Shown here: piece after piece, positions 35,791-38,843 of the stretch
Layout: every line of letters begins with the position of its first letter
How positions within the stretch are numbered: position 1 is the first letter of the stretch
NCBI GenBank assembly: GCA_019638775.1
Contig: JAHBTD010000003.1
Location: 310,001-374,000 of the forward strand
Direction: 5' to 3'
DNA: 64,000 bases
From: Fimbriimonadaceae bacterium
GTDB taxonomy: Bacteria; Armatimonadota; Fimbriimonadia; Fimbriimonadales; Fimbriimonadaceae
Made by a program: the position numbers and the translations under genes
Notes under the pieces: generated by a model
What the model was told of the DNA's origin: nothing
The model's database searches: none
Seen by the model: the letters and a program-made list of their open reading frames with translations, nothing else

Positions 35791-35899
35791 CTATACGAAC
35801 ATCGGATGATTCTGTGCGGCAAATGAATGCATTCGCATGCAGAATAGTGATTCTTGTCGCATAATAAGGGTGAAGAGTCCGATTTATATGCGTTCACAT
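35764..35899 (+). promoter_or_regulatory. Three repeated operator-like sites upstream of hipBA
   Basis: ATGTGTTCGCAT at 35764-35775, ATGCATTCGCAT at 35827-35838 and ATGCGTTCACAT at 35888-35899 share the form ATG-N2-TTC-R-CAT. Start-to-start distances are 63 and 61 bases, about six helical turns, so bound dimers would lie on nearly the same face. The third overlaps the chosen hipB start codon. HipB-type antitoxins are known to bind several operators before their own operon and repress it; assigning these sites to HipB is inference. Confidence 0.55.
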
Positions 35900-36163
35900 T
35901 CAAAGATAGGTGTTTCTCTGCCGCATACCCGCCTGGCAAAGGCCATTCGCGTGCGGCGGCGAGATCTCGGTCTAACTCAAACCGAGGCGGCTGAGCTTGC
36001 CGGGTGCACTCGGCTCTTTGTGTCGGAAGTGGAGCGCGGCAAGCAGACGGTGAGGTTCGACAAGCTACTCAATCTGTTGCAGGTGCTGGGGCTGCAGCTT
36101 GCGCTGGAGACGGGCAAGTCAAAGCTGGAGGTCAGAGTCGATGCTGAGATCGACGGAAATTGA
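35888..36163 (+). CDS. hipB: HipB-type antitoxin (helix-turn-helix)
   Basis: 91 residues from ATG 35888 (an upstream in-frame ATG at 35837 would add 17). A Cro/C1-type helix-turn-helix at about residues 18-70: LAKAIRVRRRDLGLTQTEAAELAGCTRLFVSEVERGKQTVRF has the classic L-T-Q-x-x-x-A and S-x-x-E-x-G-K pattern. The tail KSKLEVRVDAEIDGN probably contacts HipA. It overlaps hipA by 23 bases. Neutralises HipA and represses the operon by analogy with E. coli HipB. Confidence 0.85.
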   Translation: MRSHSKIGVSLPHTRLAKAIRVRRRDLGLTQTEAAELAGCTRLFVSEVERGKQTVRFDKLLNLLQVLGLQLALETGKSKLEVRVDAEIDGN

Positions 36164-37361
36164 GAGAGTTTCGATCTACTGCGACGGAGTTCTTTGCGGG
36201 GAGCTTCGTCGGACGCCGAAGGGTTCGGCTTTCCAGTACGACAGAGCATTTCTCACACGGGAAGAAAAGCCGCTACGCGGCATTGCGGTCCACCTGCCGT
36301 ATCGCGAATCTCCTTACATCACCCAAGGCGTCAATCTCCACACCTTCTTTGCCGGTCTACTCCCAGAGGGGCTCCGGCTCGAAGCGATCATCGCCAAGGC
36401 TCGGACATCGCGAGACGACCTCTTCTCTCTGTTTGTCGAGGCGGGACCAGATTCAGTTGGAGACGTCTACGGCGTACCGGCGGGGCAGACGGTCGATCCC
36501 GATATCGCCACCGTGGATCTTGCCAAAATTCAGGGGGCAGGCTTCGACGAGCTTGAAGAGGGGTTCGTCTCAGGGGCGCGGGATGCGAGCATCCCTGGTG
36601 TGCAGGCGAAGCTGTCTGCCGGTCGTATCAACCAGCCAATTGGTTCTACTCAAAGCTTCGGGCCTTCTATTTTGAAACTTGCGCCAAGGTCTTACCCGCG
36701 TCTCGTCGAGAACGAATACTTCTTTTTGAACTTGGGTGCAAAGTGCGGCATGGCAGTGCCAAAAGTAGAGATCGTTCATGACCGACGAGATCGTAGCGGC
36801 TTGATTGTCTGGCGATTTGACCGGGATGAAGACCTCGCCAGTGGAACCATCAGGAGAATCCACCAGGAAGATGCCTGTCAGTTGGCAAACCGCTACTCAG
36901 CTGACAAGTATCGGCTGACAATGAGGGAGATCGCGGAGGCGATTTGCGAGCACTGCGACACACCAGCCGTATCGCTCTACAAGCTGGCTAAGCTCTGCAT
37001 CTTCAGCTATCTCATCGGCAACGGAGACCTTCACGCCAAGAACATCAGTGTCTTTCGCAGGAAGCAGAACGGCCCGCTGACGCTGACCCCGGCATACGAC
37101 CTTGTCTCGACACTGGCCTATCCCGATCTGGATACAAGGATGGCACTGCAATTAGATGGCAAGGACGACAATATCAAGAAGCGCGACTTTGCCGCATTCT
37201 TTGAAAGGCATGGGCTTAAGGCATCGATTGTGGAATCGGAGGTTGAACAGATCGCAAACGGAGTCGGGGCAGCCTTGACTGACTTACCAGAAATCGGACT
37301 TGACGAAAAGACGACGGCGCGGATGACGCGCATCATGCAAGAGCGCATTGCAAGGCTTTAA
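36141..37361 (+). CDS. hipA: HipA-type toxin kinase
   Basis: Serine/threonine kinase toxin; E. coli HipA phosphorylates glutamyl-tRNA synthetase and halts growth. 406 residues from ATG 36141, with GGAGG nine bases upstream inside the end of hipB. The N-terminal domain (about 1-105) contains AVHLPYRESPY and FFAGLLPEG. The kinase part has the P-loop-like SIPGVQAKLSAGR near 155, the catalytic NGDLHAKNIS near 300, and the metal-binding AYDLVS near 325. All key residues look intact, so the module is probably active. It separates hutU from the rest of the region and may be a mobile insertion in the locus. Confidence 0.92.
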   Translation: MLRSTEIERVSIYCDGVLCGELRRTPKGSAFQYDRAFLTREEKPLRGIAVHLPYRESPYITQGVNLHTFFAGLLPEGLRLEAIIAKARTSRDDLFSLFVEAGPDSVGDVYGVPAGQTVDPDIATVDLAKIQGAGFDELEEGFVSGARDASIPGVQAKLSAGRINQPIGSTQSFGPSILKLAPRSYPRLVENEYFFLNLGAKCGMAVPKVEIVHDRRDRSGLIVWRFDRDEDLASGTIRRIHQEDACQLANRYSADKYRLTMREIAEAICEHCDTPAVSLYKLAKLCIFSYLIGNGDLHAKNISVFRRKQNGPLTLTPAYDLVSTLAYPDLDTRMALQLDGKDDNIKKRDFAAFFERHGLKASIVESEVEQIANGVGAALTDLPEIGLDEKTTARMTRIMQERIARL

Positions 37362-37426: not shown

Positions 37427-38023
37427 TCAGCTCTTGGTCAGCGTCTCCAACGTCGGCAGCATCTCATCTGGCTTGAAGCCCGCTGGACCAGGCCCGGATT
37501 TGTACGCCACTTTCCCATCTAGGTCGATCACATAGATCCGGTCTGGCCATGCAGCGAAGGCTTTATTAGCGGCGTCATCCATCCCGTCGATATAAATCGG
37601 GAGCTTGATCGAGAACTGCTGGGCGAAGTCTTGGGCGACCTTGCGGCGCTCGGCCTCTGTCTTGGGATCATTGATCACGATGCCGTCTTTCTTGTTTTGG
37701 GGCACCTGCCAGCCATCATCTGGGTGGGCTTCCCGAATGTAGACGACGGCAAAATCAACTTTCGATTTCCATTCGGTGTAAATCTTCTGAACCCGGTCGA
37801 CCGACCGGCGGAAGGGTGGTCACGTACAGCTGCCGAAGATCAACACCAGCGGCTTTTCGCGCTTGCCGGAGATCTCCAATTTTGTCTTCTCGTCCAGCGA
37901 ACCCAAAGAGAGCTTCGGTGCGGCGTCGCCGATGTTAAGGCTGTCTGGAGGGCGGTTTTGGCGTTGGAATCCCGTCAGCGTCAGCCCGAGTAGTCCCGTA
38001 CAAAGCAAGAGTCCGGTTCTCAT
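37427..38023 (-). CDS. Deiodinase-like selenoprotein (Sec encoded by in-frame TGA)
   Basis: One gene read through an in-frame TGA at 37820-37822. From ATG 38023 it gives 198 residues with selenocysteine at 68. Upstream of the TGA the reading is LVLIFGSCT and downstream PPFRRSVDRVQKIY in the same frame, so together they spell FGSCT-U-PPF, the active-site signature of iodothyronine deiodinase family proteins. Past it, VVYIREAHPDDGWQVP is also family-like. Signal peptide MRTGLLLCTGLLGLTLTG. The fold is thioredoxin-like and the Sec would be the redox centre. A SECIS-like hairpin follows the TGA. An earlier start at 38110 is possible but adds unrelated residues. Substrate unknown; bacterial members need not act on iodinated compounds. 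Confidence 0.88.
37793..37808 (-). promoter_or_regulatory. Bacterial SECIS-like hairpin downstream of the TGA codon
   Basis: On the minus strand the sequence CCGGTC-GGTC-GACCGG forms a perfect 6-bp stem with a GGTC loop. It starts 11 bases after the TGA, so the loop lies 17 bases after it. In E. coli fdhF the SelB-binding hairpin has a GGUC apical loop about 18 bases after UGA. Sequence, distance and in-frame position all fit a SelB-recognised element. Confidence 0.8.
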
Positions 38024-38114: not shown

Positions 38115-38843
38115 CTACGGCATCGACGGAGCGATGCCCTCCCCCAACATCTCCCGAACAGTCGGCTCGATAGCTTTGCCCCAGATTTCGTAACCTGCGG
38201 CGTTGAGATGCAGCAGGTCCGGCATCATTGTCGTGCGCAGGGTTCCATCAACCCGCATAAAGAACTTCCCGATGTCCAAAAATCGCACATGATTCCCATC
38301 GTCAAGGCCCATGAATAGCTCCGTCGCTTTGGCAACTTTCATGCGCATCCCATCTTCGGGCGTCAAGCCGCGCGGAAAGATGCCAAGCAAAAGAATCTTC
38401 GCATTCTTGAAGCTGGCTTGCATCTTAGCGACAATCGCGCGGACACCATCCGCAGTCTGCTCGGGGGTGGAAGAGCCGTGGCCGATGTTGTTCGTGCCGA
38501 TCATCATCACAATCACTTTCGGATTCAACCCAACCATTTCCCCGTGCTCCATTCGCCAAAGAACATGCTCAGTACGGTCACCCGAAAAGCCAAAATTTGC
38601 GGCCTTTAGAGGGGCAAAAAGCTTATCCCATGTCGCCTTCCCGCCTCCTTCCCAGCCTTGAGTGATGGAGTCGCCTACAAAAATCACATCTACGCCACCC
38701 CTCTTAGTGAGCTCAACACAAGCCTCGTGTCGCTGTTTCCACCAAGCCTCCGAGAGTCTTTCAACGGGTGTCGTTGCAACGTGTTGGGGAGCCTGCGAAA
38801 AACCATTCAGGGCAAAGAAGCAGGTGACGGCAGATAGGAACAT
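38115..38843 (-). CDS. Exported SGNH/GDSL hydrolase
   Basis: 242 residues. N-terminal signal (FLSAVTCFFALNGFSQA). Block I FVGDSITQGW with the nucleophilic Ser near residue 57, block II NFGFSGDR (Gly), block III IGTNN (Asn), and block V DLLHLNAAGY with the catalytic Asp and His near 210-213. All four SGNH residues are present. Resembles the platelet-activating-factor acetylhydrolase-like group, which deacylates or deacetylates carbohydrates or lipids. Start supported by a CATAAT exactly six bases upstream. The selenoprotein gene follows in the same direction and may be co-transcribed. Confidence 0.9.
   Translation of the reverse strand: MFLSAVTCFFALNGFSQAPQHVATTPVERLSEAWWKQRHEACVELTKRGGVDVIFVGDSITQGWEGGGKATWDKLFAPLKAANFGFSGDRTEHVLWRMEHGEMVGLNPKVIVMMIGTNNIGHGSSTPEQTADGVRAIVAKMQASFKNAKILLLGIFPRGLTPEDGMRMKVAKATELFMGLDDGNHVRFLDIGKFFMRVDGTLRTTMMPDLLHLNAAGYEIWGKAIEPTVREMLGEGIAPSMP

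Follow-up and report, generated by a model that had tools for sequence, protein, structure and literature searches.

The minus strand of the window, the 64,000-nucleotide stretch of the genome of an uncultured Fimbriimonadaceae bacterium (phylum Armatimonadota) analyzed here, carries a gene whose product is almost certainly a genuine selenoprotein and, by sequence and predicted fold, a member of the bacterial deiodinase-like (PF00837) family. This type of gene is already known: bacterial deiodinase-like selenoproteins with a bacterial SECIS element, together with their Cys homologues, were reported from the Sargasso Sea in 2005 (PMC1088965) and were listed again in GOS 2008 (PMC2398784) and in later reviews. 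The window protein shares with these proteins the PF00837 domain, the position of selenocysteine (Sec), a SECIS placed right past the UGA, and the occurrence of Cys homologues, but differs from them in carrying a Cys two residues before the Sec (Sec−2) and in lacking a distal Cys. The less expected part of the finding is this second redox residue. The name Armatimonadota does not occur in the passages of two reviews that were searched for it.

The reading frame is interrupted by a single in-frame TGA, in the context FGSCT-U-PPF, and terminates with another TGA (37427–37429, minus strand). A preliminary description, made from the letters of the window, had read the two same-frame ORF pieces around the internal TGA as one deiodinase-family selenoprotein with a bacterial SECIS, and had deduced that selA, selB, selC, and selD must exist elsewhere in the genome. 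The frame and the hairpin lie exactly where it had placed them (Table 1), and the family assignment, the SECIS, and all four genes were recovered in the analyses described below. About the first 20 residues are predicted from the sequence to form a hydrophobic export signal or anchor. The upstream gene encodes a GDSL-like lipase/acylhydrolase, and 91 bp separate its end from the start of the selenoprotein gene. A search for sigma-70 promoter-like sites found none, and the sole terminator-like site scores below the shuffled mean. Beside the selenoprotein gene, on the opposite strand, a gene for an HTH protein (35837–36163) is followed by one for a HipA-like kinase (36099–37361); by content and order, the two would constitute a HipBA-type toxin-antitoxin pair.

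Table 1. Positions in the window of the selenoprotein gene, its elements, and the upstream gene.
Feature	Position	Strand	Basis
Deiodinase-like selenoprotein gene, 198 aa with Sec68	37427..38023	−	Translation with TGA = U; PF00837
Sec codon UGA (codon 68)	37820..37822	−	Alignment column: TGA in 96/104 distinct relatives, Cys in 8/104
bSECIS hairpin, 6 bp stem, apical loop GGUC, spacing 17 nt	37793..37808	−	bSECIS model limits
Cys66 codon TGT, proximal candidate resolving Cys (Sec−2)	37826..37828	−	Alignment
Site of relatives' distal Cys (consensus VAxxC, mostly Sec+65)	37622..37630	−	Alignment
GDSL-like lipase/acylhydrolase, upstream gene	38115..38843	−	PF13472, E = 2.6e-29

Standard annotation would call this locus a pseudogene or two genes, and the ORF list does split it into ORFs of 96 and 92 aa, as the preliminary description had anticipated. 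Given its conservation in relatives, it is nonetheless exceedingly improbable that the TGA truly terminates translation or disables the gene, leaving a pseudogene or two separate short proteins. Relatives from the phylum and from other phyla were collected only if the Sec column held a stop, Cys, Ser, or Thr, and those with other residues there would have been missed. Of the 104 distinct sequences obtained, 96 have TGA at this single ungapped column and the other 8 have Cys. The TGA members come from several phyla, and coding is conserved on both sides of the codon. The preliminary description had named an ordinary codon or a real stop in relatives as evidence against a selenoprotein; the composition of the column instead favors Sec, and the presence of the Sec machinery in the genome likewise argues against a stop. 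The EAH motif starts at Sec+30 in every one of the 96 TGA members. An alignment-based scan of contigs yielded 182 encoding stretches, and 80 of them were retained; scanning contigs with only the window protein as query recovered no relative. Among 392 Planctomycetota genomes, the exact FGSCTUPPF DNA pattern did not occur.

Within the phylum, a PF00837 search of 291 genomes identified 19 with a TGA form and five with a Cys form above the cut-off. The selA gene is present in all 19 TGA-form genomes and in none of the five Cys-form genomes (Fisher p = 2.4e-5), against a background of 141 of the 291 genomes (hypergeometric p = 5e-7 for the TGA-form genomes); both p-values are too small, as related genomes are non-independent and no correction for phylogeny was applied. 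Two family arrangements were observed in the course of these searches. In a Fimbriimonadia MAG (L023 and L059), three deiodinase-like Sec genes stand in tandem within about 2 kb, and in genomes of the phylum without selA (L039–L043; families f42, f43, and f45), a Cys-form deiodinase domain is followed by a putative in-frame alpha/beta hydrolase with an HGGGW motif.

The host genome (4.3 Mb, 99.9% complete) contains selA (491 bits), selB (377 bits), and selD (358 bits), each above its curated cut-off, as well as a tRNA-Sec gene (selC; 70.8 bits, also above its curated cut-off) for which ARAGORN reports the anticodon tca. The preliminary description would have been undercut by a genome without Sec machinery, which is not the case here. 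As for contamination, which is listed at 3.96% for the genome, the gene nevertheless sits on a 570-kb contig that also bears selD. The selD gene (L019, G000:C3, about 203.4 kb) itself has an in-frame TGA, in the context CAG-U-ASKLGP, and probably encodes a Sec-containing selenophosphate synthetase. In three TlpA/ResA-like redoxins of the same genome, an in-frame TGA replaces the first active-site Cys (UGPC, UGPC, and UGCR; contexts FWGFW-U-GPC, FWAHW-U-GPC, and NWASW-U-GC); these lie on G000:C1 at about 1200579–1200935 (L146), 696278–696586 (L147), and 1241391–1241741 (L148), and are likely further selenoproteins that are also prone to misannotation. Because the sel machinery is accompanied by in-frame TGA codons in selD and the three redoxins, the organism very probably makes several selenoproteins.

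The stem-loop CCGGTC-GGTC-GACCGG (37808..37793) begins its loop 17 nt past the TGA. The bSECIS model (PMC13188914) calls for a loop of 3–9 nt with G in the first two loop positions, a stem of 4–16 bp, a spacing of 16–37 nt, and MFE ≤ −7.5. With a loop of 4 nt in which G comes first, a stem of 6 bp, and −9.5 kcal/mol, the window hairpin falls within all of these limits. Synonymous recodings of the same peptide average −3.2 kcal/mol (p = 0.039), so that for the window gene alone the excess in stability is modest. Across the family, the same test gave a mean of −6.7 against a null of −2.2 for the TGA members (p < 0.05 in 46 of 96), and no excess for the Cys members (−1.5 vs −1.4; p < 0.05 in 0 of 8). 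The loop starts 16, 17, or 20 nt past the UGA in most family members. An uninterrupted hairpin is absent from 13 TGA members in a simple scan that allows no bulges and is therefore incomplete as a SECIS test; an Rfam search of the window returned zero matches, which has little bearing on a bSECIS.

The confinement of the hairpin excess to TGA members also speaks to a second way of accounting for the codon, in which UGA-68 is read by near-cognate suppression independent of a SECIS, or is a reassigned UGA, with Trp or Cys inserted. This we regard as highly improbable: the selenoprotein gene itself terminates with TGA, the TGA form within the phylum occurs only in selA-positive genomes, and Cys stands in place of Sec in genomes that lack selA. 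We infer instead that Sec is actually inserted at codon 68.

The read-through protein gives a single match to PF00837 (T4_deiodinase; residues 29–194, E = 2e-35, 122.7 bits against a gathering cut-off of 27). It is related to the NCBIfam family NF038285 (deiodinase family protein) but falls outside it by cut-off, scoring 187 bits where 250 are needed in a match limited to the C-terminal half of the 347-aa model. An AlphaFold2 model, computed from the window protein aligned with 30 relatives, has a pLDDT of 93, and its closest PDB matches are mouse DIO2 (9h48; Z = 21.1, rmsd 3.2, 172 aligned; Foldseek E = 1.6e-14) and DIO3 (4tr3; Z = 20.6, rmsd 3.0, 167 aligned; Foldseek E = 3.3e-14), which stand above all other chains listed. 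ResA and AhpE follow, with Z of about 17. With the ResA/TlpA-type thiol-disulfide oxidoreductases and AhpE/Bcp peroxiredoxins, the window protein has in common the thioredoxin fold and a redox residue at the start of a helix; it differs from them in the absence of a CxxC motif, in structural Z (about 17 vs 21), and in the deiodinase EAH and PDR motifs that are conserved among PF00837 relatives. With vertebrate DIO1 and DIO3 (DIO3 structure, 4tr3) it shares the fold, Thr at −1, Glu at +30, and His at +32, and with DIO3 the motif GSCTUPPF. In contrast, its SECIS is bacterial and in frame, whereas the vertebrate SECIS is in the 3′UTR, and it lacks a distal Cys.

The deiodinase label holds for sequence and predicted fold, with deiodinase activity itself a candidate. 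The protein could be a genuine reductive deiodinase or dehalogenase that acts on natural aromatic halides, and not a redox enzyme of peroxides or thiols, as its best relatives in sequence and fold are DIO2 and DIO3 and as it retains SCTU together with the Glu (+30) and His (+32) of the EAH motif. The DIO1 proton-relay set of Thr125, Glu156, and His174 (numbering and roles from PMC9141512) is, however, incomplete in the alignments: Thr67 and Glu98 are present, but Pro120 occupies the place of His174. Moreover, thyroid hormones are unexpected in bacteria (PMC1088965), and no halide-related genes were noticed among the neighbors. On balance, we consider a true deiodinase distinctly unlikely, and favor a more general selenol-based redox enzyme.

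The second redox residue distinguishes the window protein from nearly all of its Sec-containing relatives. A distal Cys occurs between Sec+55 and Sec+66 in 93 of the 96 Sec members, at exactly +65 in 83 of them, and probably serves most bacterial relatives for the resolving step. Residues 132–134 of the window protein, in the corresponding region, are Asp-Phe-Ala. Conversely, a Cys at Sec−2 is found in none of the 93 members with a distal Cys and in only two of the 96 Sec members, the window protein and a homologue from Candidatus Poribacteria (L072, selA present), both of which lack the distal Cys and have the proximal CTU motif known from vertebrate DIO1 and DIO3. These two proteins form a clade (support 98/94) outside the group that holds Sec copies from the window's own order; because of this position, the window copy is divergent, and may be a lateral acquisition or an old paralogue. 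The cysteine swap comprises two sequences in one clade, and thus possibly one evolutionary event. A strict exchange, in which one or the other cysteine is always present, was rejected on account of a Sec-form protein (L135), from a genome of the same phylum as the Poribacteria homologue, that has neither. This protein, possibly an enzyme that works with one Sec or an intermediate state, means that a second Cys is not an absolute requirement. We found no description of proximal/distal Cys variation in bacterial members in the open-access literature. PMC9312934 gives the bacterial deiodinase-like motif as UxxC, in contrast to the 96 Sec sequences analyzed here, in which Sec+3 is Phe or Tyr and never Cys.

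In human DIO1, mass spectrometry of the U126C enzyme showed a link between Cys124 and residue 126; reduction by glutathione depends on Cys124, and no role has been assigned to the distal Cys194 (PMC9141512). The distal Cys of the bacterial members, when aligned to DIO3 by profile, misses the column of the sole Cys in that stretch of DIO3. Our proposed mechanism begins with SelB, which, guided by the hairpin just past the codon, would insert Sec at UGA-68. The product, a single thioredoxin-fold domain behind the putative N-terminal export signal or anchor, would act as an exported redox enzyme of the peroxiredoxin or reductive-dehalogenase type. In the first step, an oxidized or halogenated substrate would be attacked by Sec68; Cys66 would then attack the oxidized selenium, giving a Cys66–Sec68 selenenyl-sulfide like that proposed for Cys124–Sec126 of human DIO1, and this bond would be reset by a thioredoxin-like reductant. 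The recycling step is proposed because of the cysteine swap, the role of DIO1 Cys124 (PMC9141512), and the mismatch between the bacterial distal Cys and DIO3. Our high confidence pertains to the identity of the selenoprotein; taken by itself, recycling through Cys66 is somewhat favored.

Alternatively, the missing distal Cys and the presence of Cys66 may be unrelated drift in a peroxidase with one Sec that is reset by external thiols, like the 1-Cys peroxiredoxin AhpE, which is among the good fold matches. L135 retains Sec with neither cysteine, and the Cys forms of the phylum also lack both, as this alternative would have it. Drift would not, however, readily account for the distribution of the Sec−2 Cys (0 of 93 with a distal Cys vs 2 of 3 without) or for the gain of precisely the position at which the Cys of DIO1 and DIO3 has a function (PMC9141512). 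We therefore deem drift rather unlikely and prefer recycling through Cys66. A broader evolutionary account, which we offer as a tentative possibility, is that in a bacterial lineage the resolving Cys moved from the distal helix to Sec−2, and that the CTU redox motif of vertebrate DIO1 and DIO3 was thereby reached independently.

If this account is true, the two Cys positions would be interchangeable routes for recycling oxidized Sec in this fold. The bacterial proteins with a distal Cys only, a proximal Cys only, or neither are natural variants that allow the two roles to be separated. Genes of this kind would be split or labeled pseudogenes by automatic annotation, so that redox enzymes that depend on Sec are easily overlooked in Armatimonadota and other uncultured phyla.
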